The notes under the pieces were generated by a model. It was not told where the DNA came from. It did no database searches and saw only the letters and a program-made list of their open reading frames with translations. The position numbers and the translations under genes were made by a program. A stretch of DNA of 64,000 bases from Hyphomicrobium sp. (lineage in GTDB: Bacteria > Pseudomonadota > Alphaproteobacteria > Rhizobiales > Hyphomicrobiaceae). Of this stretch, positions 8,312 to 25,459 are shown one piece after another. The first letter of the stretch is position 1. Each line of letters opens with the position of its first letter. The DNA is taken from assembly GCA_002928735.1 (NCBI GenBank), contig PERL01000007.1, positions 109,400-173,399 of the forward strand, given 5' to 3'.

Positions 8312-8890
8312 ATGGCAAAATTCACGCAGCGCGGATGTGACGTCCTAAGCGTCCTCACCGCAATCGGGTCGCTGGCGGTGCTTAATGGCTGCGCTTCGGG
8401 CGGCCAGCCGCTCTCCCTGACGCCCGGCGGCCTGCCCGCCGTGACGGGCTATACGGAAGGCAATGCGGTCATGCCGCAAGGATATCAGGTGTCCGGCGGC
8501 GGCGACAACGCACTCCGCGTTACGGTCACAGGCTCGGCAACAACCCCCAACGAACGCCTCCTCAAAATCGCGCTCGCCCGTGCCGCGCAATATGGCACCG
8601 AGCAGAATAGCAAGACCTTCCGCGCAGCCGAGCCGGCCTATTCCGTGCGCTGCGGCAAGACCAGCGTGTCCGAGCGCGGCGCCACGCGCGCCCTCTCCCC
8701 CACCGACTATCGCGTCGTCACCCTCGACGTAACCTTCGGCAAATCCTCCTCCGCCGATCCGGCCGACCGGCCCACCAAACCAACCGCCGCCGCACTGCTT
8801 GCTGAAATCCAGGCCGAGCAGATCCCGCAGGAAACGCAGGCCGCCCTGGCCGCCCAGTTGGCACAAGCCTGCGGCCGTTCCGCGCCGTAG
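8312..8890 (+). CDS. Putative outer-membrane lipoprotein
   Basis: A 192-residue protein whose N-terminus ends in a lipobox-like LNGC at residues 25-28, so Cys28 would be lipidated after cleavage. The n-region is rather long and contains Cys9, so an internal start is possible. The mature sequence has a repeated GYQVSGGGDNALRVTVTGSATTPNERLLKIALARAAQYG pattern and two further Cys (VRCGKT and QACGRS) that could pair. I do not recognise the family beyond a general resemblance to alphaproteobacterial lipoproteins found beside pyrG. Confidence 0.7.
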   Translation: MAKFTQRGCDVLSVLTAIGSLAVLNGCASGGQPLSLTPGGLPAVTGYTEGNAVMPQGYQVSGGGDNALRVTVTGSATTPNERLLKIALARAAQYGTEQNSKTFRAAEPAYSVRCGKTSVSERGATRALSPTDYRVVTLDVTFGKSSSADPADRPTKPTAAALLAEIQAEQIPQETQAALAAQLAQACGRSAP

Positions 8891-8993
8891 CGGCAACCGA
8901 CTCGGTTGTTTGGCACACAACTCGAACGCGGCTGCTTAACCTCCCGTGGATGTGGCCATAAAGCCGCTTCGAATCGTGGCGGCGGTCGTGTAA

Positions 8994-10634
<1,641 letters not shown>

Positions 10635-12410: not shown

Positions 12411-12974
12411 TCAGAGCGGGTTGATCAACAGCTTCACGAGACTGGTGTGCGGCTTTTTTGGCGGCTCTGGCCGCTTCATCGGCTGCTGCTTGGCCGTGCG
12501 CCGTGTCGGCGAGGTGTAGCGCACGCCGACAAGGAGGCCCTGCCGCCACATCACCTCGCAGTCGACCTCCAGCCGGTCGGCCGGCATGAACAGCGTGAAC
12601 TGATCCGGCACCCGGTCACGGGAAATGTTGCCGCCGCGCTGGGCCGCCACTTCCAATCGCGCGCCCGTCGAAGACGTATCGCGAATGGTGCATAGGATCG
12701 ACGCCGTAAGGCTAGAATGTACGATCTGAGCGCCAAGACGCGTGGGCGTCCGCCGCGCCCACCGTGCCTCTGACCCGGCCTGTACCTCTTGCGACAGCAT
12801 GCTTGGCTGCGAGGTCATGGCCATAGCGGGAGCCACCGGGCTGTCTGAAACGGGCGCAGCCGCCTCTGCAGCCTGCACGGGTTCGACAGGTGCCGTCGCG
12901 GCTGGAGCGCGCGGCGCAGGAGCGGATTGGCGCAACGCGGAACGCTGGCCGAATGTCGGAGTCTTAGGAAGCAT
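12411..12974 (-). CDS. PilZ domain protein
   Basis: About 187 residues. The C-terminal half matches a PilZ domain, a cyclic-di-GMP receptor fold: RRTPTRLGAQIV, then IRDTSSTGARLEV, then a hydrophobic core ending in DCEVMWRQGLLVGVRYTSP. The N-terminal third is Ala/Pro-rich and probably disordered. I chose the ATG at 12974, which has a good GAGGTG site eight bases upstream, over a GTG at 13007. The arginine pattern needed for c-di-GMP (RxxxR and D/NxSxxG) is present as RRxPxR and DTSSTG. Its partner is unknown; the adjacent acyl-CoA ligase is probably unrelated. Confidence 0.8.
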   Translation of the reverse strand: MLPKTPTFGQRSALRQSAPAPRAPAATAPVEPVQAAEAAAPVSDSPVAPAMAMTSQPSMLSQEVQAGSEARWARRTPTRLGAQIVHSSLTASILCTIRDTSSTGARLEVAAQRGGNISRDRVPDQFTLFMPADRLEVDCEVMWRQGLLVGVRYTSPTRRTAKQQPMKRPEPPKKPHTSLVKLLINPL

Positions 12975-13109
12975 CACCCACCTCGATGCAAGAAATACCG
13001 TCTTCACTGTAGTCGGAAGGCGTTTCGAGGCCGTTTGCAGATTTCCTAAATTTTTAAGTAACTCTTCGTTCTTTCACGGTTCGCAGACGCGCCGGGCCAA
13101 CCAGTGCCC

Positions 13110-14834
13110 TCAGCCAGACCTGTTTTGCAGTTCCTCGGCCTTCAGTTCCTTCTTCGACAACTTGCCGATCATCGTCTTCGGCAGGCTATCCCGGAACTCG
13201 ATGGCCGCGGGCATCTCAATCTTGGACAACTTCGGGCCCAAATGGCGCCGGATATCGTCTTCCGTCGCCGCGTGACCAGCCTTCAACTTGATGAACGCCT
13301 TTGGCGCCTCGCCCCTATTCGGGTCGGGGATGCCAATCACCGTCACCTCTTCGACTGCCGGATACTCGTAGATCGCCTCTTCAACCCGCCGCGGATAGAC
13401 GTTGTAGCCAGAGCAGATGATGAGATCCTTGATCCGGTCGACGATCTGGAAAAAGCCGTTCTCGTCCATGATGGCGACATCGCCCGTCCGCAGAAAGTCG
13501 CCCACGAACTGGTTGGCCGTCTCATCCGGCTTCTTCCAATATCCACGCATGACCTGCGGTCCCTTGATGCACAACTCCCCGCGTTCGCCCGGCGCCACCG
13601 GCAACGTCGGGTCGCCAAGATTGCGCAGGGACACGATCGTGCCGGGCAGGGGCAAGCCGATGGACCCGGGCGGCGGAGGCACACCTTCGATCGGATTGCA
13701 CGTCACAACGGGCGAGGCCTCAGAAAGTCCATAGCCTTCGACGAGTTTGCACCCCGTCGTCGCTTCGAACTTCTGCTTCACTTCCAAGGGAAGCGGTGCG
13801 CCGCCCGACAAACAGAATTTCAGCGATGTCAGGTCGTAGGACTTGATCTTCGGATGGTTCTGGATCGCGTTAAAGAGCGTCGGCACGCCCGGCATGATGG
13901 TGGGCTTCACCTTTGCGATCAGCGCCAGTCCCTCATCCAGCGTAAAGCGCGGCATCATCACGATTTCGGCGGCTTTTGCGATGCCGAAATTCATGACAAC
14001 AGTCATCGCGAACACGTGGAAGAACGGCAGCACGCCCATCACGCGCTCTTGGCCCTGTCCAAGATCGGGCGCCCACATCATCACCTGCCGCGTATTGCGG
14101 GTCAGGTTCGCGTGCGTCAGCATCGCACCCTTCGGCGTTCCCGTGGTGCCGCCCGTGTATTGCAGGACAGCGATGTCTTGTTCGGGATCGATGGCCACCG
14201 GCGCGGGCTTGGCGCCTTTCACCAGCATGGCACTTTCCAGCACGATGTGCTGCGCGGCCGCCGAGGCTTTTGGCTTGGCGATCTGCTTGCGCTTGAACAG
14301 TTTGAACAACGTGCTCTTGGGCGACGGCAGCAGATGGGCAAACGAGCACACGATAGCCCGCGGCAGGACGCCTTTCGTCAGCAGCGCATCCACCTTCTCA
14401 AACAGCATTTGAAGGTCGAGCGTCACCATGATCTCGGTCTCGCTGTCCTTCACCTGGAAGGTCAGTTCCTCGACCGTGTAGAGCGGATTGTAATTGACGA
14501 CCGTGGCGCCTGCTTTCAGTGCCGCATAATAGTAAACGATGAAGGTCGGCGAATTGGGCAGAAACAGTCCGACCTTGGTTCCTTTGCGCACGCCGAGACG
14601 TTGGAGCCCCGCCGCCGCCGCATCAACCGTGGCGCCCATCTCGGCATAAGAGGTGATCCGCCCGAAGAAATTCGTGCACGGGCGCTTAGGGTAGGCGCGC
14701 ACGGCATCGTCCAAGAGACTGAAGACTGGGCCATCGGGAATCTCAGCGAACCAGTCGACATTCGAAGGATAGCGGCGCAGCCACGCATGGGGTGCGGCAC
14801 TGTCGATCGGGGTGGAAGGAGCCATCTCGGTCAT
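13110..14834 (-). CDS. Long-chain acyl-CoA ligase (AMP-forming)
   Basis: Activates a fatty acid to its acyl-CoA by an acyl-adenylate. The adenylate-forming signature TGGTTGTPKGAM, the GYGLSEASPV motif, TGDVAIMDENGFF and the C-terminal catalytic Lys in PKTMIGKLSKKEL are all present. The start at 14834 (574 residues) has a GCAGGTG site; the 10-residue longer form lacks one. It belongs to the FadD-like family, but the acyl chain preference cannot be read. It faces the acyl carrier protein gene across a 480-base divergent region, so a link to lipid remodelling is plausible. Confidence 0.9.
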   Translation of the reverse strand: MTEMAPSTPIDSAAPHAWLRRYPSNVDWFAEIPDGPVFSLLDDAVRAYPKRPCTNFFGRITSYAEMGATVDAAAAGLQRLGVRKGTKVGLFLPNSPTFIVYYYAALKAGATVVNYNPLYTVEELTFQVKDSETEIMVTLDLQMLFEKVDALLTKGVLPRAIVCSFAHLLPSPKSTLFKLFKRKQIAKPKASAAAQHIVLESAMLVKGAKPAPVAIDPEQDIAVLQYTGGTTGTPKGAMLTHANLTRNTRQVMMWAPDLGQGQERVMGVLPFFHVFAMTVVMNFGIAKAAEIVMMPRFTLDEGLALIAKVKPTIMPGVPTLFNAIQNHPKIKSYDLTSLKFCLSGGAPLPLEVKQKFEATTGCKLVEGYGLSEASPVVTCNPIEGVPPPPGSIGLPLPGTIVSLRNLGDPTLPVAPGERGELCIKGPQVMRGYWKKPDETANQFVGDFLRTGDVAIMDENGFFQIVDRIKDLIICSGYNVYPRRVEEAIYEYPAVEEVTVIGIPDPNRGEAPKAFIKLKAGHAATEDDIRRHLGPKLSKIEMPAAIEFRDSLPKTMIGKLSKKELKAEELQNRSG

Positions 14835-15315
14835 CACCTGCCTGCCAATGGGTTGACGCAGCACACTTTTTCAGTCGATGCGCGGCCCATGGCGCCGCCG
14901 GTCTTGTGGTCCTTGATACAACTTGGCCCGATGCGGCGCCAAGACCACTTCTCTCCGCTGCTGAACAATGCTCGAAAGCAGCCCGTAGGGCCTAGCTCAC
15001 CGGCACCATTGAACACTTTTTCATGGTTTCGGACTAGACCAATGACGAGCCAGGGGCATCGAACCTGGGGACGGCTGTGTCGGCCGGCCTGACGCCGGCG
15101 CCAGTTTGCCGGACACGGAAGGTCTGCGGTGGCCATCGACGGCACTGGAGGGCATTTGCTCCGTGTAGCCGGGCTTTGGTCGGCTGGACTTGGAATGCCT
15201 TTAAGGTTATGTGACGGCCTAGCTTGTTGCGAAATCTGTCGTGACCTAGGAACAGATTAGGGAACCTGTATCCAGTGCCGGCCTTCAAGGGGCGGGGACT
15301 GGTGTGGAGAGCGAT
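14835..15315. other. Intergenic divergent region, about 480 bases
   Basis: This lies between the acyl-CoA ligase (minus) and the acyl carrier protein (plus). No frame with a ribosome site and coding bias was found; the open frames are short or are continuations of antisense frames. It presumably holds two divergent promoters. I did not find a convincing -35/-10 pair or a clear operator. Confidence 0.4.
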
Positions 15316-15585
15316 ATGGACGAAGTGGCGACCAAGATCATCGAGATCCTCAAGAAGCACATGAAGGAACCTCGTGACGACATTTCGCTTTCGACGCAGC
15401 TGACGGATCTCAAGATCGAATCGCTCGACCTCGCGATGATCGTGTTCGACATCGAAGACACCTTCGGTATCGAGATCCCTTACAACGCCAACGAAGACGT
15501 TGAAGACTTCAAAACCGTCGGCTCCGTGGTCGATCGCGTGAAGTCGCTGATGGCTGGCGGCCCCGCCGCCGCCGCGAAGGCCTGA
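15316..15585 (+). CDS. Acyl carrier protein, specialised
   Basis: About 89 residues, helical and acidic. The phosphopantetheine serine is Ser36 in KIESLDLAMI, where the usual DSL is replaced by ESL. The following IVFDIEDTFGIEIP is the standard helix II region. I chose ATG 15316, which has GGAG six bases upstream, over the GTG at 15304. The next gene, 130 bases downstream, is a NodE/FabF-type ketosynthase, so this ACP probably serves a dedicated acyl chain, as NodF or similar secondary ACPs do in Hyphomicrobiales. It is not the AcpXL type. Confidence 0.88.
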   Translation: MDEVATKIIEILKKHMKEPRDDISLSTQLTDLKIESLDLAMIVFDIEDTFGIEIPYNANEDVEDFKTVGSVVDRVKSLMAGGPAAAAKA

Positions 15586-15715
15586 TGTTGGCCGGGACGG
15601 CATCAGCCGTCCCATCGCTCGCGCCAGCAAACGATTTCTGCCCGGCAGCGAAGCGTCATCGTGCGAATGAAAATTTTGCGGTCCGGCATCCGCCGGCCAA
15701 AGCGTGAGTCTTGTC

Positions 15716-16954
15716 ATGTCCGAAGCAAAGCGCCGCGTCGTCATTACCGGGATGGGCGCCGTCACGCCGATCGGCACCACGGTCGATGAATTCTGGGCCA
15801 GCCTCCGCGCCGGCAAGTCGGGGGTCAGCGAATTGGGCGGCTTCCCGCTCGAAGATCTAAAAATCCTCATCGCCGCCCAGATCAAGGACCTCGACCACAA
15901 GGCCCGCCTCAAGCACTTCAAGCGCGATCGCATCATTTCGCTCGCCGACCGCTACTCATGGTTCGCAGCCATCGCCGCCGACGAAGCCGTGCGCATGTCC
16001 GGCCTCGAGATGCCGATTGCCGACCCCTATCGCTCGGCCTGCATCATCGGCTCCGGCGCCGGAGGCCTCGTCACCTTTGAGACCGCCTACCGCGATCTCT
16101 TCATCTTGAACAAGCGCGCCACGCACCCCCTCACACTGTTGCGCATCATCGGCTCCTCGGCCGCCGCCCACGTCGGCATCGAATTCGGCGTCAAGGGCCC
16201 GACGTTCGCCACCTGCTCGGCGTGCTCGACCGCCACGCACGCCATCGGCATCGCCCGCGACTACATCCAGAGCGGCATGGTCGATGTCGCCATCGCCGGC
16301 GCCTCCGAGAGCGTCATCAACTACGGCACCATGAAAGCCTGGCAGGCGCTCCACGTCCTCTCGCCGGAAGGCTGCTTCCCCTTCGCCAAGAAGCGCAACG
16401 GCACCGTGCTCGGTGAAGGCGCCGGTATCCTGGTCATGGAAAGCCTCGAACACGCCCAGGCGCGCGGCGCCACCATCCTCGCCGAACTCGTCGGCTACGG
16501 CATGGCCTCCGACAGCCAGGACATGGTCAAGCCCACCGTCGAGGGCCCCTCTGTCGCCATGCAGAACGCGCTGAACGACGCCGGCCTCAAGCCTGACGCC
16601 ATCCAGTATCTCAATGCCCATGGCACCGCGACCATGGACAACGACATCAACGAGACCAAGGCGATCAAGAACGTCTTCGGCGAGCACGCCTACAAGCTCG
16701 CCATCTCGTCGACGAAGTCCATGCACGGACACCCGCTGGGTGCCGGCGGCGGCATCGAAGCCGTGGCCTGCATCAAGGCCATGCAAGAGAGCTGGGTTCC
16801 TCCGACCATTGGCCTCGACGAGCCGGGCGAGGGTTGCGACCTCGACTATGTCCCCAACGTCGGCCGCGACCTCAAAGTCACCCACGCCATGTCGAACTCG
16901 TTCGCGTTCGGCGGCCTCAACGCCGTGCTCGTATTCGGCCCCCCGCCCGCCTGA
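15716..16954 (+). CDS. Beta-ketoacyl-ACP synthase, FabF/NodE-like
   Basis: Condensing enzyme of thiolase fold. The catalytic Cys is in TCSACSTATHAIG, and the two His are in NAHGTATMDND and MHGHPLGAGGG, so the Cys-His-His triad is complete. The length of about 412 residues is that of FabF. The N-terminus RRVVITGMGAVTPIG fits the start at ATG 15716 better than the upstream GTG 15704. Together with the ACP just before it, it probably elongates a special acyl chain; the substrate is not readable from sequence. Confidence 0.9.
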   Translation: MSEAKRRVVITGMGAVTPIGTTVDEFWASLRAGKSGVSELGGFPLEDLKILIAAQIKDLDHKARLKHFKRDRIISLADRYSWFAAIAADEAVRMSGLEMPIADPYRSACIIGSGAGGLVTFETAYRDLFILNKRATHPLTLLRIIGSSAAAHVGIEFGVKGPTFATCSACSTATHAIGIARDYIQSGMVDVAIAGASESVINYGTMKAWQALHVLSPEGCFPFAKKRNGTVLGEGAGILVMESLEHAQARGATILAELVGYGMASDSQDMVKPTVEGPSVAMQNALNDAGLKPDAIQYLNAHGTATMDNDINETKAIKNVFGEHAYKLAISSTKSMHGHPLGAGGGIEAVACIKAMQESWVPPTIGLDEPGEGCDLDYVPNVGRDLKVTHAMSNSFAFGGLNAVLVFGPPPA

Positions 16955-17096: not shown

Positions 17097-17750
17097 TCAG
17101 CTAAAGCCGAGACGTCGTATCTTCGTTGCGTACTCAGTGAGGGCCACCAGTATAAATAGAGGGATGGAGAGCTCGAGTACCTCTTCGAGAAGCTGCAAAG
17201 CGATGACAGAATGGTCTGTAAGCTCAGCGCCGATATATCCAAACTTGCGTCTGGGCCCATCAATCAGCTTAGAAAGGGCTGCGGCAAGTATGGCAAGGAT
17301 CGAAGCCATGGCGCAAGAAGACGCAGCTTTTGCCTCGACCAGGAGGTTCTTTAGATGGACCGTTGCCACTTTGAAGGCAACGAAGGCACCGAAAGCCAGC
17401 AGAGAAAATCCGTAAATAGTCTGCAACCAAGAAATATCGGGGTTCAAGAGGAACTCCCACTTGGTGATTTTTGCGTCCGTGAAGCGTGCGTCAAAATCAA
17501 GCTCACGCATAGCAAGCAGAACGATTAGCCAGAAAATCCATTTGAGCTGGGCGTATAGCCGATAGGCGAGAATGTAGATCAGTGCTGCGACGTATGCAGC
17601 CAACGTTGTAAGTTCGATCCAGGAGTCCTCTTTCTTGAGAGACGTTTGCACCTCCAGCGGGGCCAAAAGAGATAGGATGTAGATTGCCGCCACTGCGGCG
17701 ATCACGAGTCCAATCTTCATGTGAGCAGACCAAAAAACCTTGTCGTGCAT
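17097..17750 (-). CDS. Hypothetical membrane protein
   Basis: A 217-residue protein with about five hydrophobic segments (GLVIAAVAAIYILSLLAPL, TLAAYVAALIYILAY, WIFWLIVLLAMRELD, TIYGFSLLAFGAFVAF and a C-terminal LELSIPLFILVALTEYA). The ATG at 17750 has a strong GGGGAG seven bases upstream, better than the longer frame to 17816. Base composition is lower in GC than its neighbours. It is convergent with the ketosynthase gene. No family is recognised, and nothing in the context points to a function. Confidence 0.7.
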   Translation of the reverse strand: MHDKVFWSAHMKIGLVIAAVAAIYILSLLAPLEVQTSLKKEDSWIELTTLAAYVAALIYILAYRLYAQLKWIFWLIVLLAMRELDFDARFTDAKITKWEFLLNPDISWLQTIYGFSLLAFGAFVAFKVATVHLKNLLVEAKAASSCAMASILAILAAALSKLIDGPRRKFGYIGAELTDHSVIALQLLEEVLELSIPLFILVALTEYATKIRRLGFS

Positions 17751-18071
17751 AAAACTACTCCCCACCCTCCCAGCGTCGTAAGTTGCCTTGAAGTCGAACG
17801 CAAGAAATCCAGGCAACGCCGTCCATGGCAGAGTCGGGCAGGGTGCGGTGCAACATCGGCACGTTCCCTTCCGTCACCAGCCAATTGGGTGTGGATACTC
17901 AGTTTTTTCGATCGGGTCGCCGCGATCGCAGCCTTCCGGGTTGGGAATGTTCGTACCGGCACTTACTCCCGCCCTATGGTCGCTCATATCAGCCACAGCT
18001 CTTGAAGGATCGCCATTCTGGTGACAGACTATCGCTTATGGCTCGGTCAGCGGGAGCCGCTGGAGGATTGA
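17751..18071. other. Intergenic divergent region, about 320 bases
   Basis: This separates the hypothetical membrane protein (minus) from the cyclophilin-like gene (plus). No credible coding frame was seen. It may hold both promoters; a short T-run with TTTTTTCG near 17903 is present but not diagnostic. Confidence 0.35.
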
Positions 18072-18477: not shown

Positions 18478-19521
18478 CTAAGACACGTTGGAGATTTTCG
18501 GGAAGACGCCGGGCAATCGGTCGGCTAGCAGGCGCGCCAATTCGGCCTGAGGATTTTCTAAAAGCGGATTGACCTCACGCAACGCCGACGTGAACCGCTC
18601 CGGCGTGATGTCGACGAGGTCAATCTCGCGGAACAAATTGCGGTCCTCCAGCCAGCGCCGGTATTCCAACTCCTTCGGGGGCAGAGCCATCTGCTTGGGT
18701 TTCAAAACGATCGTTGGTCTGCGCATCCAGATGGCTTCGGAAACCATGGCGCTGGAATCGGAGGTGACCACGATCGCTCCGCTCTCGGCGAACAGCGCGC
18801 CGAGCGTCCCCGACCCCGCCGTCCTCACGTCGACGAAGCGAAGGATGGTTCCGCCGGGCTTGGCCGCCAAGGCCGCGATACGGTCGCTGACGCCCGCTGG
18901 CGTGCGCCGCGAGTTCGAAACGATCCACGCAAGGCCCAGACGCAGCCGCGTCTCGCCCAGAAACGTCAGCAGGTGAGTCCACTCCCGCTCGTCGAACCGC
19001 CCATCGCCGGATGGTCCTCCGACAAGCAACCCCGCGACCCGAGGCAACCGCCGGTGGTCGAGAACGGCGGAGGGCAGCAACGCCGGATCGCCGGCTGCGG
19101 GTTTCAAGATGCGCACCTGGTTCGGCGCGGCGTTGTCCGTCGTGTACGAGTTGAGCGCCAGCGTAAAATCGGCAGCCATGAAGCGCCGCAGCGACCCGAA
19201 AAAGATATTCGGTGTGCCCGTGAGCCGCGCCAAAGCGATGTTGGCTGCAATCGTATCGCCACCGGCGGATACGATAAGATCGGCTTTCGGCACCGATGCG
19301 GCATCGATGCCGTAGACCAACTTCAGAACGGTTGCTGGGGAGACTGAGCGGTTGACCATCCAGCTCACAGCCCGTGCCGGAACTAGCTTAGACCGCTCAA
19401 CCGCCACCCACATCGCGTTGACGGCTTGGATCCGAGCCAACGCATTGCAAACGCCCTCCGAGCAGTGGAAATGGCCCGGCGTGCCGTCGGTCAGCAGGAG
19501 GACGTCCATCGTGTCAGCCAT
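18478..19521 (-). CDS. ELM1-like protein (mitochondrial fission ELM1 family, PF06258-type)
   Basis: A 347-residue protein of the family also known from alphaproteobacteria as ELM1-like, with a GT-B-like fold. Recognisable blocks are LTDGTPGHFHCSEGV, then LIVSAGGDTIAANIALARLTGTPNIFFGSLRR, then VTSDSSAMVSEAIWMRRPTIVLKPK. The function in bacteria is unclear; a glycosyltransferase-like role in surface glycan synthesis is a reasonable guess. It is the last gene of a minus-strand group with the nucleotidyltransferase/NDPK-like gene and the P-loop gene, separated by about 100 bases. Confidence 0.75.
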   Translation of the reverse strand: MADTMDVLLLTDGTPGHFHCSEGVCNALARIQAVNAMWVAVERSKLVPARAVSWMVNRSVSPATVLKLVYGIDAASVPKADLIVSAGGDTIAANIALARLTGTPNIFFGSLRRFMAADFTLALNSYTTDNAAPNQVRILKPAAGDPALLPSAVLDHRRLPRVAGLLVGGPSGDGRFDEREWTHLLTFLGETRLRLGLAWIVSNSRRTPAGVSDRIAALAAKPGGTILRFVDVRTAGSGTLGALFAESGAIVVTSDSSAMVSEAIWMRRPTIVLKPKQMALPPKELEYRRWLEDRNLFREIDLVDITPERFTSALREVNPLLENPQAELARLLADRLPGVFPKISNVS

Positions 19522-19623: not shown

Positions 19624-21138
19624 TCAATCAACGCGAAATCTTGCAGCCAGCGCCTCCATACCGGTGATATCCAGGAAGCCGATATGTTCCAGGGCTTCCG
19701 TGGAATTGTCGCTCGAGTGCACGATCCGTTGCTCTTTGACGCCCCGAGCCCCCACCGCTAGACGGATCGTATGTTTGAAATTGGTGTTTTCGTTGTCGAA
19801 ACGCGCACGCTTGCGGCGCGTCCGCGCGCTGGGAGGCGCGGGCTTAGGATCGATGCACACGAACCAATAGACAGGCTTCGCCGTGCCGTTTGGTGCCGTC
19901 GGGTCGGACCAGTTCCCGCCACGCACGCCATTCTCTATTCTTTGTCGATTGGCCTCTGTCACGGACCCCTCGGCCCATATTTCAAATTTCTCCCGAAGGT
20001 GATCGCGGATCGCGGGGACCGGCGACAAGCCGCCACCGAAGTCGCGCACGAACACGGTCATCAGTCCCGGACGGTATTGAGTTCGCCCGAAATACCGGTG
20101 CTTGAGGAATGGGTTCTTCTCCGCATAGAAGCCGAGAAGGTCGAAGCTCGGCCAGCAGTCGGCACGCCGCAAAGCCTGCTCCAGATCGTCGAATGTTCGC
20201 GGCTCCTCCGCGCCTGCAACACGCGCCAGGCGCAAAAGCTCTTCGTAATACTTCGGCGATCGGAAGGTGCCGGGCCCGAGGATGTTCGTTCCCGGCGGAA
20301 CCCGCCGCGACTTGATGTGCAGCAGAAGATGGTACGCAAACGACAGGAAGCGGAACTGATCAGACGGCACGCGCAACCCCGACGCCCGCGTCACCGCCGA
20401 CTGGAGCAACTGCCGCGCCATGGACGGCTTCAAGTACGGCGCCTGAGCAAAGAAGAAGCCGCCGCTTCCGTCCTCCGAATAGATGTCGAGCGGCCACGTT
20501 GCCACGCGATCACGGAACAGTTCGGCGACCTTCGGCGCATCCGCAGCCGAAACAACGATGTCGATGTCGCCCTCGTGTGTCCCGGCCTCGATGCTATCTA
20601 CCCATCGCAAGATAGCATAGTCGAGTCCGGCGAGCCGCTGAAGGAAATCGAGCGGCTGTGTTCCCGCTGGGCCGTACTGCCGCCGATTGTCGAGGGACTT
20701 AACGAGCGTCTCGATGACCCAATATCTGCCGGACGCAAGCTCCGTCTGTCCCCGCACACGCAGACGTCCCCGCCGCGCATGCCGGAAGATTGCGGGCCGC
20801 GCTAAAGCATATGGTATCCCCGCCGGCACAAGAATGGTCTCGAACCTCACAAGAACTTTCGTCTTCATTAAAGCGAGAGCTGACAACCCGTGCAGTAGGA
20901 CGGCGTTGCAGTTGTTCTCCACAATGCTCTGCTGCGACGGGTAGCCGAGCCGGACATGCGACTCGAGACGGTGCGCCTGCGCCGGGCCGCCCTTCTCGAG
21001 GTATAGAAGGTCCCTCGCATGCAACACGTCTAGCGCTGGTGGCGCGAGAGCGGCAGGCGGCAGCGCCACGCAGACCAGCTTGTCCTTAAGGACGATTGAT
21101 GGGTCGAGATCCGGCACGTCACGCATGAACGTTCTCAT
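19624..21138 (-). CDS. Nucleotidyltransferase-like protein with NDP-kinase-like C-terminal domain
   Basis: About 504 residues. The middle holds GDIDIVVS (residues 190-197), the G-D-x-D core of the nucleotidyltransferase superfamily. The C-terminal part from about 355 reads like a diverged NDP kinase: a beta strand MTVFVRDF, another YWFVCIDP, HTIRL around 456-460, and RIVHSSDNSTEALEHIGFL at 471-489. The last corresponds to the NDPK active-site block N-x-x-H-G-S-D-S, with catalytic His at 474. The strict KPD of true NDP kinases is not kept. I see no other domain. The ATG at 21138 follows the preceding gene by two bases; ATG 21126 is an alternative. The substrate is unknown, and the neighbours suggest surface-glycan work. 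Confidence 0.65.
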   Translation of the reverse strand: MRTFMRDVPDLDPSIVLKDKLVCVALPPAALAPPALDVLHARDLLYLEKGGPAQAHRLESHVRLGYPSQQSIVENNCNAVLLHGLSALALMKTKVLVRFETILVPAGIPYALARPAIFRHARRGRLRVRGQTELASGRYWVIETLVKSLDNRRQYGPAGTQPLDFLQRLAGLDYAILRWVDSIEAGTHEGDIDIVVSAADAPKVAELFRDRVATWPLDIYSEDGSGGFFFAQAPYLKPSMARQLLQSAVTRASGLRVPSDQFRFLSFAYHLLLHIKSRRVPPGTNILGPGTFRSPKYYEELLRLARVAGAEEPRTFDDLEQALRRADCWPSFDLLGFYAEKNPFLKHRYFGRTQYRPGLMTVFVRDFGGGLSPVPAIRDHLREKFEIWAEGSVTEANRQRIENGVRGGNWSDPTAPNGTAKPVYWFVCIDPKPAPPSARTRRKRARFDNENTNFKHTIRLAVGARGVKEQRIVHSSDNSTEALEHIGFLDITGMEALAARFRVD

Positions 21139-21140
21139 CC

Positions 21141-21785
21141 CTATCTGGAGCGCTTTGAATGACCACACCCGGACGCCGACAACCCAACCCGCACCACTTC
21201 GAAGTCAGGTTTGCGCGCACCGCCGGAAACGGGGCGGAGTTCGATGACGGGTCGGTTGCCGTGCTTGGCGGCGATCTGCCCGGCGAAGTCGCCCCACCTA
21301 TCGCAAATCTCCCCAATTGCATCGGCATCTGCGTAGAGCTTTTGCTCGAATTTCGGCCGCAACAAACGAGTCCAGACCCTCGATAGGATGAACTTCTCAG
21401 CCTGCCGCGCTTCAAGCCGCGTGCTGAATTGCTGCAGAAGCTGGTCGGGCGCGGGCCGCAGGAACACGAACTGCACGTCGTCGAGACCGCCGATAAAGTC
21501 AAACGTCGGATCGTCGGCGTAGGTGGCCTGCCCCGAGCGCGGCACGGAGACGATATTTTAGTGGATGACCCGGCGATCCGGCGCTCCGATCCGCGACCAG
21601 ACCGCCTCGGCCCCGTCTCGCTTGATCGCGTCACGCAGTTCGTTGGTCATGTCAAGAACCGGCCAGTCCGCAGCGCCGGGCTCGAACATCGACTGCAGAT
21701 GCGGGGCGAGCTCCCCACGTCGCAATAGTTGAAGAAACGTTGTCTTGCCCGCTCCGGAAGGACCCGAGAGAAACAGGATGCTCAT
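21141..21785 (-). pseudogene. P-loop NTPase/kinase gene interrupted by an in-frame stop
   Basis: One reading frame of about 214 codons. The ATG at 21785 opens with MSILFLSGPSGAGKTTFLQL, a clear Walker A (GPSGAGKT). After 75 codons there is a TAA at 21558-21560 (RRVIH-stop-NIVSVPR), and the same frame then continues open to a stop at 21141. The continuation carries strong codon bias and plausible protein (FIGGLDDVQFVFLRPAPDQLLQQF). A Tyr codon (TAC or TAT) would restore it. It could be a recent nonsense mutation, a sequencing error, or two separate products. The downstream nucleotidyltransferase gene follows at two bases, so they form one unit. The substrate is unknown. Confidence 0.6.
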
Positions 21786-22144
21786 CCGCCCTCCAATCGG
21801 TCGGCAGGTCTTGGGACCAGCCGCGGCCGGCGGTTCGCCAAGTGATCATCGGTAGGAAGAGGAGCGGTTCGAGACATGCGCATCACAGCCAGCGCGGAGA
21901 AGGCGCCAATCGGCCTCCAGCGACAAATCTTGGGCGTGTGCACTTGCCGGCAGCACGCGAGCGAACGCTTCCTTTACTCCAGATTTCAGGCTACCGCGAG
22001 GTGTCTGATCGCCCACCGAATCCAGGCTGCGATTCAAGGCACACTTGCCCTAGCGCCCCTCTTGTGTCGATATGCGGGCCGCTCCCCGGGGTGTCGACTC
22101 GCCCCGCCGCTTGGCGATTGAAATCGCTCTGGGATTTGCCATCG
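21786..22144. other. Intergenic divergent region, about 360 bases
   Basis: This lies between the P-loop gene (minus) and the ABC exporter (plus). An open plus-strand frame from 21740 runs into the exporter without a start with a ribosome site or domain match, so I treat its N-terminal 135 codons as non-coding. It probably carries both promoters; none was identified securely. Confidence 0.4.
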
Positions 22145-23899
22145 ATGAAGAAGCAGAAGCCACCCACCGACCTCTGGCCGGTCATGAAACGGGTCCTGCG
22201 CGAGGACGGCTCGCGCTATTGGCCTAAATATGTGTTGGCGAGCCTCTTTCTCGCCATTTCCGGGGGCTGCACGGCCCTGGCGGCCTGGATCATGAAGGAT
22301 GTCATCGACGATATTTTCGTCGCCCGCGATCAGACTGCAATGATGCTGATCCCGCTCGCGATCGCAGGTCTGTTCCTGCTTCGCGGCATCACGATCTATG
22401 CCGGCGAAGTCATGTTGAACCGTGTCGGCAACAAGATTGTCGCCGAGACCCAGGTCAAACTCTACAGCCACTTGCTGAAACAAGACATCGCCTTCTTCAA
22501 GACGCACCCGTCCGGCGATCTCTTGAACCGCATGACGGTGAACGCGACCGCGTTGCGCACGATGCTAAACCAGATCGCGCTGAGCCTCGGCCGGGATGTC
22601 ATGACCCTCCTCGCCCTGCTCTGCGTCATGCTGGCTCAGGACCTCACGTTGTCGCTCATCGTCTTCGCGGTCGGCCCGCTGGCCTTCCTTTCACTCAGAC
22701 TGTTGACGCAGCGCATTCAGGGCCTGGCGCGGCGCGGATTCACAAAGGGCGCTGAGATCCTGACCACGGTTCGCGATTCCGTGCAGGGCGTGCAAACGGT
22801 TAAGTCCTACCAGCTCGAGGCGATTTTCAATCAACGGCTCCAAAGCGAGGTCGACGCCATGCGCCGCAACAGCAATCGCATGGGAGCAATCCAGGCCACC
22901 ATCGCGCCGCTGATCGAAATATTTGCCGGCGCGGCCGTGGCCGCAGTCATTTTCTACGCGGGCTGGCGCCTGAACGCCGCAGACAATCCCCCAGGCTCGT
23001 TTTTCGCTTTCGTCACGGCACTCCTGATGGCCGCCGAACCCGGGCGCCGCCTCGCCCGCGTCCAGGGACAGTTGATCGCAAGCGCAACCGGAGTGCGCAT
23101 GATCCACGAAATCATCGATCTCCCGGAAGCCGAGGGCGCCGATGGTGACCGGCCCCCGCTCGCCATTAGCTCCGGCGAGATCGCGTTCAAGAACGTGTCC
23201 TTCAGCTACCTTGACGACATCGGCATCCTGTCGGGCATCACCTTCACCGCTCCAGGCGGCAAGACGACGGCTCTCGTCGGCCTATCGGGCAGCGGAAAAT
23301 CGACCACCCTCGCGCTTCTCGAGCGCTTCTGGTCGCCGAATGCGGGCACCATCGAAATCGATGGCCAGAACATTGCCGATGTCACGCTCGAAAGCCTGCG
23401 CCGCAACATCGCCTTCGTCAGCCAGGACACATTCCTGTTCCAGGGTACGATCAAGGAGAACCTCGTCGCCGGCACGCAGGACCGGACGATGGAAGACATC
23501 GTGGCCGCCGCGAGGTCGGCACAGATCCACGACTTCATCGCGGGCCTGCCCGAAGGCTACGACACGCCCGTGGGTGAAATGGGGTCCCGCCTCTCGGGCG
23601 GTCAACGCCAGCGCATTTCGATTGCCCGCGCATTCCTAAAAGATGCCCCGATCCTTCTACTCGACGAACCGACCTCGGCCCTCGACAGCGAAACCGAATT
23701 GGCGCTCCGCCAGTCTCTCGATAAGCTGTCCGAAGGGCGGACCGCCATCGTCATCGCCCATCGCCTCGCGACCATCGTCGGCGCCGACCAGATCCTCGTT
23801 CTGGAAAATGGCCGCATTGTCGAGAACGGTACCCACCGCGATCTCATCGGACGTGGCGCCACATACGCCCGTATATACGACCTTCAAAAGCTGCATTGA
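22145..23899 (+). CDS. MsbA-type ABC exporter (fused TMD and NBD)
   Basis: A half-transporter of 584 residues that should act as a homodimer in the inner membrane. The N-terminal half has about six membrane helices (starting YVLASLFLAISGGCTALAAWIM). The C-terminal ATPase domain has Walker A GLSGSGKSTT, signature LSGGQRQR, Walker [13 protein letters not shown] and a switch His in VIAHRLATI. It resembles lipid A/lipid-linked glycan exporters; the substrate is not determined. The start is ATG 22145 (MKKQKPPTDLWPVMKRVLRED). It faces the minus-strand glycan-like gene group, and a tRNA follows 63 bases downstream. Confidence 0.88.
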   Translation: MKKQKPPTDLWPVMKRVLREDGSRYWPKYVLASLFLAISGGCTALAAWIMKDVIDDIFVARDQTAMMLIPLAIAGLFLLRGITIYAGEVMLNRVGNKIVAETQVKLYSHLLKQDIAFFKTHPSGDLLNRMTVNATALRTMLNQIALSLGRDVMTLLALLCVMLAQDLTLSLIVFAVGPLAFLSLRLLTQRIQGLARRGFTKGAEILTTVRDSVQGVQTVKSYQLEAIFNQRLQSEVDAMRRNSNRMGAIQATIAPLIEIFAGAAVAAVIFYAGWRLNAADNPPGSFFAFVTALLMAAEPGRRLARVQGQLIASATGVRMIHEIIDLPEAEGADGDRPPLAISSGEIAFKNVSFSYLDDIGILSGITFTAPGGKTTALVGLSGSGKSTTLALLERFWSPNAGTIEIDGQNIADVTLESLRRNIAFVSQDTFLFQGTIKENLVAGTQDRTMEDIVAAARSAQIHDFIAGLPEGYDTPVGEMGSRLSGGQRQRISIARAFLKDAPILLLDEPTSALDSETELALRQSLDKLSEGRTAIVIAHRLATIVGADQILVLENGRIVENGTHRDLIGRGATYARIYDLQKLH

Positions 23900-24139: not shown

Positions 24140-25048
24140 CTACGCTGACAATGCCAATTCGTGCTTCTGCCGAAACGCGGGCTTCAAATGTGCTGCTACA
24201 CCGACCTGGCTGAGGCGTTCAGCAAAGTCTAGATTGAGCGAACGAAACTGCGCGCGCGTTTCAGCGGGAGATCGCAATTGAAGCGGTGCGCGGTGTAAAC
24301 AAGATTCGATTGCGTTATTCAGAGATTCTGTATCTCCCCTGGAGCATTTCACAACCGCGCTTTCCGGGAAGCCAAACAACTTGGCAAGGCTCGTGAATTT
24401 GGTCGAGTATCCGATGATATGAACTTTGCGCCCCGAAAGCAGTCCCCAGTAGGCCGCGTGATATGAATTCGTGGTCACAATTTGCATCCGGCTAAAGGCA
24501 TCGGTGAAATCTTGAACCCCTAGTTCATTGGTGGCAAATATGTACTTTTCGGACCCTTGACCCCGCTGAGACGCCATCGTGGCGGCTAGTGAGCCCGACA
24601 CGCGCGGATTTCCGTTTAAGATAATGCCGCGCCGTGTTCCCGGCGGAAGTTCTGAGAGCGGGTGATAGGCGGACGGACATGGTACCAGCGGCAGCCTTAG
24701 AGATGCCATGGCAGGGTCGCGTGTCGATGCGCGGCAATAGGTGACGCGTCGCAGCAGCTGCTTAAGCGTGACGTCGATGCTGGAGGGCACTTTTTCGAAG
24801 GGCCAGCTTTGTCCGACGGCCCAAGCAATTCGTACCTTGGCCTTGTGTCGAAGTGCGCGCTTAGCAAAAAAATTGTTTGAGGCGCCGCCACCGGCAATGA
24901 GCACCGTCCGCTGCGCTCCGAAATCAAAGTAGTGTTGCGGGGAGGCGAGGAAATCGCCGATGTTTGTCATGTCACCATAGTGGAGAAAAGCAACCGATGC
25001 GTTGCGATCCTCCGCATCGACTGCGCGATGCACGTTCGACAACTCCAT
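24140..25048 (-). CDS. Polysaccharide pyruvyltransferase family protein
   Basis: About 302 residues. It has typical family blocks: FLHYGDMTNIGDFLASPQ near the N-terminus, VLIAGGGASNNFF, and the late ITTNSYHAAYWGLLSGRKVHIIGYSTKF block. These proteins add pyruvate ketals to exopolysaccharide sugars from PEP; the acceptor here is unknown. I chose ATG 25048; the longer frame to 25198 adds 50 residues with no family match. It lies downstream of the tRNA and opens the accessory segment. GC is lower than in core genes, consistent with acquired DNA. Confidence 0.8.
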   Translation of the reverse strand: MELSNVHRAVDAEDRNASVAFLHYGDMTNIGDFLASPQHYFDFGAQRTVLIAGGGASNNFFAKRALRHKAKVRIAWAVGQSWPFEKVPSSIDVTLKQLLRRVTYCRASTRDPAMASLRLPLVPCPSAYHPLSELPPGTRRGIILNGNPRVSGSLAATMASQRGQGSEKYIFATNELGVQDFTDAFSRMQIVTTNSYHAAYWGLLSGRKVHIIGYSTKFTSLAKLFGFPESAVVKCSRGDTESLNNAIESCLHRAPLQLRSPAETRAQFRSLNLDFAERLSQVGVAAHLKPAFRQKHELALSA

Positions 25049-25189
25049 TCGAGCCCCCGTCGCTGCTTGAAAGACAAGCACAAATCTCGCTTTCCGCGGA
25101 TCACGAAAGAGGCGTAACAAATTCGAACGACAGATCAGTGACTGATCTGTGACTTGCGTATTACTAGCCTTAAGCTTTGCTACTCGTGA

Positions 25190-25459
25190 ATGACCCAATC
25201 GGTCATCAGCGCCATTCGTGACCCTTTGCAGCTATCCGCGAGGCTCAACGGTGCGCGGCTTGCGTTCCATTCAGGAGTAGCAGGGCTCAACCTCAACGCC
25301 ATGCGCTTCGACCCGGACCCCACCAAGCCCGCGTTCGACAAGCACGTGGCGGCCGCTCTGAAGTCGGGCCGGTTCAAGATGCCCGAGATCGACACGAAGC
25401 CCTTTTGCTGTCAATTAGCTGGGGAACTTCTGATCAACCAGCGGATCATGGCACGCTAG
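25190..25459 (+). pseudogene. Possible gene fragment cut by an IS end
   Basis: An 89-codon plus-strand frame. From about 25280 to 25405 codon choice is strongly GC-rich at third positions (GLNLNAMRFDPDPTKPAFDKHVAAALKSG), unlike its surroundings, and the frame then runs into the IS end at 25422. It looks like the 3' remains of a larger gene truncated by the element. No family is recognised. It could equally be a chance frame. Confidence 0.25.

Follow-up and report, generated by a model that had tools for sequence, protein, structure and literature searches.

A nucleotidyltransferase joined to a predicted NDP-kinase fold in a putative surface-glycan locus of Hyphomicrobium

The window analyzed here is a stretch of 64,000 nucleotides from Hyphomicrobium sp. 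(contig PERL01000007.1, positions 109,400 to 173,399). The gene under study encodes a protein in which a nucleotidyltransferase (NTase) domain is followed by a predicted nucleoside diphosphate kinase (NDPK) fold. It lies in a minus-strand series consisting of a P-loop gene, then the NTase-NDPK gene, and then an Elm1-family gene. The plus strand at 19624-21138 contains several stops, and the reading frame is found only on the minus strand, where an alternative GTG start at 21168 would give a protein of 514 amino acids. The gene and its parts are as follows.

19624..21138, minus strand: NTase-NDPK gene, 504 amino acids; ATG at 21138-21136, stop at 19624-19626
20692..21138, minus strand: Rossmann fold like that of S-adenosylmethionine (SAM) methyltransferases, residues 1-149
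20089..20691, minus strand: nucleotidyltransferase domain related to PF14907 with a helical tail, residues 150-350, from profile comparison and conservation
20548..20571, minus strand: GDIDIVVS, residues 190-197, with the NTase acidic pair D191/D193; the third acidic residue is D218
19639..20076, minus strand: predicted NDP-kinase fold, residues 355-500
19717..19719, minus strand: codon of His474, equivalent of the NDPK catalytic His118, conserved in 104/104

A sequence-only reading had named a 504-residue open reading frame (ORF) with GDIDIVVS, HTIR, an NDPK-like block and two strands, and all of these were located. HTIR spans residues 456-459 and the block RIVHSSDNSTEALEHI residues 471-486, including His474, while TVFVRDF (361-367) and YWFVCIDP (424-431) overlap the predicted strands 359-365 and 422-429. 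The methyltransferase-like N-terminal domain, the minus-strand orientation, the upstream P-loop gene and the reversed-order family described below go beyond that reading.

Conserved cores and the reversed-order family

A protein search with 7,991 scored candidates returned 41 proteins at expectation values (E) up to 1e-3, the top one being 99% identical to the window protein; 35 of the 41 were aligned with the window protein as alignment A1. The A3 profile, built from 21 diverse members, matched 66 proteins among 7,999 scored candidates. Conservation in the window family was counted without a motif filter in 105 sequences less than 95% identical to each other (median pairwise identity 0.28), and these counts are biased toward conserved motifs because members were collected by similarity to the family.

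The nucleotidyltransferase proposed earlier is supported by a match of the A3 NTase profile to a PF14907-type profile (probability 95.7, P 8.9e-9) and by conservation of the core aspartates, D191 and D193 each being kept in 102/103 sequences. Residue 218 is D in 90, E in 13 and R in 1 of 104. The likeness to the uncharacterised nucleotidyltransferases of NTP_transf_5 (PF14907) comprises an NTase core with D-x-D, a third acidic residue and a helical part after the core, whereas the window family differs in having LR before the core and an attached NDPK fold. The Pfam cut-off of PF14907 was not reached, with no match for the window protein and E of 0.041 and 0.11 for P0036 and P0062. As for the N-terminal part, residues 1-149 are predicted to adopt a class I Rossmann fold like that of SAM methyltransferases. 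The glycine-rich SAM motif I, a methyltransferase hallmark used for comparison, is absent by eye from the window protein, which reads LVCVALPPAAL there; a VLDLGARDG stretch was noticed by eye only in L014 among the 18 relatives inspected.

A structure search with the whole predicted model placed an NDPK fold in the C-terminal part, where the sequence-only reading had expected it. Both results named as refuting it, a C-terminal part without such a fold and a lack of conservation of His474 and the GDIDIVVS aspartates, were looked for and neither was found, so that its overall interpretation is supported. R365, R406, W410, K455, R459, H474 and D477 are each present in 104/104 sequences. Both the retention of the core residues and the profile match to canonical NDKs, gauged against shuffled controls as given below, exceed chance. 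Conservation is also high for G407 (105/105), G408 (102/105), N409 (100/105), S476 (101/104), N478 (101/104) and E481 (98/104). The protein shares with NDK (PF00334) the H-x-S-D with a catalytic-type His, an Arg105-type Arg (R459), a Ser120-type Ser (S476) and, by prediction, the fold itself; unlike NDK, the window family adds a conserved RGGNW and Lys and is joined to an NTase. The PF00334 model gave no match for the window protein at E up to 1, and among the other members scanned it appeared only in P0080 (E 0.1, 12.9 bits, below the cut-off of 27).

The pair of NTase and NDPK fold recurs in both domain orders. The reversed family was assessed in 119 sequences, which remained from 120 of the 317 proteins found and 8 locus proteins after thinning at 95% identity. 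W11, K103, R107, H117 and E124 are each kept in 119/119, and in the NTase part D203 and D242 in 119/119 and D201 in 118/119. The signature common to both families is K-x3-R, 10 to 15 residues to His, and Glu at +7, this spacing being taken from two reference sequences and alignments A3 and A4. Among the 120 reversed-family proteins, protein-kinase domains were found in 15, a family-2 glycosyltransferase in 2 and a methyltransferase in 1. By eye, L093:1165-2112 has an NDPK-like N-terminal region with an HASDN motif, lacks the NTase and continues into a different domain. In L091:1486-2754 and L006:13509-14879 an NTase-like region precedes a P-loop that looks kinase-like by eye, so that NTases of this type have a third kind of partner.

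Pfam and NCBIfam hold no family for the window protein at E up to 1. The earlier statement that no family had been described agrees with the members scanned, since no model exceeded its cut-off for their NTase or NDPK parts. A PDB sequence search with A3 gave no match at E up to 10, PADLOC none for the three proteins scanned, and neither a plasmid search (window protein and relative P0129) nor a phage search (P0129) a match. Word searches of open-licence papers, in which absence is weak evidence, returned no description of the pairing; the papers that came up concerned NDPK or RP2. Each domain type is familiar by itself, but within the searches made the combination of NDPK fold and NTase in both orders, frequently in sugar loci, is novel.

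Surface-glycan setting

The neighbours of the NTase-NDPK gene in the window are the following.

21141..21785, minus strand: P-loop kinase-like gene, upstream, broken by an in-frame stop (TAA, 21558-21560)
18478..19521, minus strand: Elm1-family (PF06258) protein, downstream, Pfam E 2.5e-26
21740..23899, plus strand: MsbA-like ABC exporter, TIGR02203 496.5 bits, below the cut-off of 602
24140..25198, minus strand: polysaccharide pyruvyl transferase family protein, PF04230 33.3 bits, over the cut-off

The final stop of the P-loop gene ends 2 bases before the ATG of the NTase-NDPK gene. Uninterrupted homologues exist in L003, L004, L005 and L007, and P0021, P0027 and probably P0048 carry the P-loop domain as an N-terminal fusion. 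The listed start of the MsbA-like gene is probably too far upstream.

Neighbour clusters were compared across 38 loci, with two places counted twice and L015-L017 close kin; the Elm1 cluster occurs in 8 of these loci and the P-loop cluster in 7, counting the window, and a Kdo/WaaP-type kinase cluster in 12, the last with an L015 member over the Pfam cut-off. Pfam matches in 129 hand-edited neighbour ORFs from 29 loci include Glycos_transf_2 (13), Kdo (10), Elm1 (8), Glycos_transf_1 (6), APH (5) and ABC_tran (4). A family-25 glycosyltransferase lies beside the target gene in L010, and a family-9 (heptosyltransferase type) in L011. An assignment by eye of L010:9048-9854 and its context to Kdo synthesis was dropped because Pfam assigns glycosyltransferase family 25. 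The lipopolysaccharide (LPS)-core kinases (Kdo/WaaP PF06293, WaaY PF06176, YrbL PF10707) that occur as neighbours in some loci are partners and not homologues, differing from the NTase-NDPK proteins in fold and chemistry. By eye, a kinase-like C-terminal region is fused in L012 and L014; the L012 region gave PF03109 at E 2.2e-4, below the cut-off, and the L014 region no match.

In the same genus, L173 and L174 keep the order ketoacyl synthase (KAS), cyclophilin-like, Elm1-type, variable part, MsbA-like and tRNA-Met, while L172 covers only the left side of this order and L175 only its first genes. Within the variable part, L172-L174 each encode one member of the GDP-mannose 4,6-dehydratase family and one of an epimerase family; for the L174 pair NCBIfam gives the names gmd and GDP-L-fucose synthase, each scoring over its cut-off. 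Because these sugar-nucleotide genes stand in relatives at the slot of the NTase-NDPK gene, we infer that the slot is a surface-glycan island. The earlier guess of a surface glycan is thus supported by gene context, both by the neighbour Pfam matches and by the genes in this slot. The idea that the island replaces a Kdo transferase was rejected, PF04413 being present in 6/6 genomes searched.

Proposed function and rival explanations

The best explanation is that the glycan-locus protein, with its PF14907-like NTase and predicted NDPK fold, likely acts as a bifunctional enzyme that attaches phosphate and nucleotide groups to surface sugars. The analysis shows the domain layout (as a predicted structure), the conservation of both catalytic cores, the recurrence of the two domains in either order and their glycan-related surroundings. 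A probability of about 0.5 is given to this reading, and we infer every step of the catalytic role. The NTase acidic triad would transfer a nucleoside monophosphate from a nucleoside triphosphate (NTP) onto a hydroxyl group of a sugar or onto a sugar phosphate. His474 would accept the gamma-phosphate of an NTP in the ping-pong manner of NDPK, and this phosphate would be passed to a sugar phosphate or nucleotide adduct, not to free NDP. Priming of the acceptor would fall to the LPS-type kinase, whether neighbouring or fused, and to the P-loop kinase-like protein.

Sections of PMC7554756 and PMC7461546 give the NDPK active site as Lys10/12, Tyr50, Arg104/105, Asn114/115, His, Ser119/120 and Glu128/129, all but Tyr50 being included in the residue mapping; Lys12 and Asn115 hydrogen-bond the ribose (same section of PMC7461546), and in NME1 the same pocket binds coenzyme A (a passage of PMC10253429). 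Compared with NDK, the Lys12 place is taken by Arg365 in the window family (104/104) and by Trp in the reversed family, the Asn115 place is variable in the window family (Asn 2/97, Arg 60/97), and the Glu at His +11 is absent (H 80, Y 21, M 2, N 1 of 104). This residue comparison suggests that phosphoryl-transfer chemistry has been kept and nucleotide-acceptor binding changed. The same active-site replacements also weigh against the proposed enzyme, since the domain may be one that binds a ligand but performs no NDPK-type transfer. Several other results count against the enzyme as well. A structure search with the whole model gave no row at or below E 1e-3, and canonical NDK is matched in profile comparison with low probabilities (4.7 to 20.9%). 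When the profiles were set against 29 canonical NDKs, 1 to 2 of 300 column-shuffled controls reached the score of the window's family (1/300 for A3, 2/300 for A1). Both D191 and D193 are lost in L009, the neighbour counts stand without a background set for comparison, and we know of no activity for any family member.

The NDPK domain could instead be a true local NDP kinase regenerating NTP, from which the NTase makes a nucleotide sugar using sugar phosphate. The predicted fold, the conserved His, the adjoining NTase and the sugar-nucleotide genes in the same slot of relatives agree with this, but a canonical NDK is present in the window's genome and the NTase resembles PF14907, which to our knowledge is not a sugar-nucleotide pyrophosphorylase family. 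Since the NDP-ribose contacts Lys12 and Asn115 (roles as given in part of PMC7461546) are also replaced or variable, local NTP supply is considered unlikely. Loss of these two equivalents, together with divergence past Pfam detection, would suit a domain that is no longer catalytic and serves as a nucleotide or phospho-sugar sensor gating the NTase. However, the His, the Arg105 equivalent and the Lys four residues before that Arg are kept in 104/104 and 119/119, and a binding-only domain would not need them, which makes a sensor quite improbable.

Another candidate target is a protein or lipid carrier in the locus, in which case phosphotransfer by His and nucleotidylylation would regulate the operon kinases or glycosyltransferases. 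Some NTase-fold enzymes nucleotidylylate proteins, and kinases are found as neighbours or fusion partners. Moreover, NME1 transfers phosphate from H118 to protein His, as a section of PMC7461546 describes. Nevertheless, Kdo/WaaP sugar-kinase matches account for 10/129 neighbour ORFs versus 3 for Pkinase (the sets may overlap), and no recurring protein-substrate candidate was seen, though no systematic search for one was made; such a target is very improbable.

In two related families the NDPK fold is thus coupled with a nucleotidyltransferase, and their genes frequently lie in sugar loci. NDP kinases are housekeeping enzymes with regulatory side roles. We put forward only tentatively, as somewhat doubtful, that the families form a large undescribed enzyme class with NDP-kinase chemistry redirected to surface glycans, in which the NTase and NDPK fold, whichever comes first and frequently alongside a kinase, would together produce sugar decorations that are phosphorylated or nucleotidylated (possibly pyrophosphate) via phospho-histidine. 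If true, a phospho-histidine route would be added to glycan decoration, and a first functional lead gained for PF14907-type NTases and several hundred related proteins, mostly nameless.

Distribution and adjoining genes

With the window's own genome counted, matches occur in 4/103 genomes of its taxonomic family and in 4/397 of its order, where two of the four are weak NTase-only matches. None of 5 same-genus genomes, 2 of them under 90% complete, carries an NTase-NDPK gene. The phylum of L006 gives 22/387 matches (13 strong, 9 weak) and the order of L014 gives 6/297 (5 strong, 1 weak reversed-order). Both families together extend over Proteobacteria, Verrucomicrobia, Planctomycetes, Actinobacteria and Firmicutes. 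The patchy occurrence among the genomes counted would fit horizontal transfer. In L113, paralogous short-form NTase-NDPK genes (8318-9526 and 12873-14078) lie about 3.3 kb apart, with an ORF that is epimerase-like by eye near each.

The product encoded at positions 17097-17816 (minus strand) of the window is, by eye, probably a membrane protein; it matches no Pfam family and has homologues among the variable glycan genes of L172 and L173. Additionally, genes for an AMP-binding enzyme, an acyl carrier protein (ACP) and a ketoacyl synthase at 13110-16954, conserved in the genus, adjoin the glycan island and are possibly an acyl-chain pathway. All three were present in 3/4 fetched stretches, partly cut by stretch ends, and L173 shows ACP and KAS.
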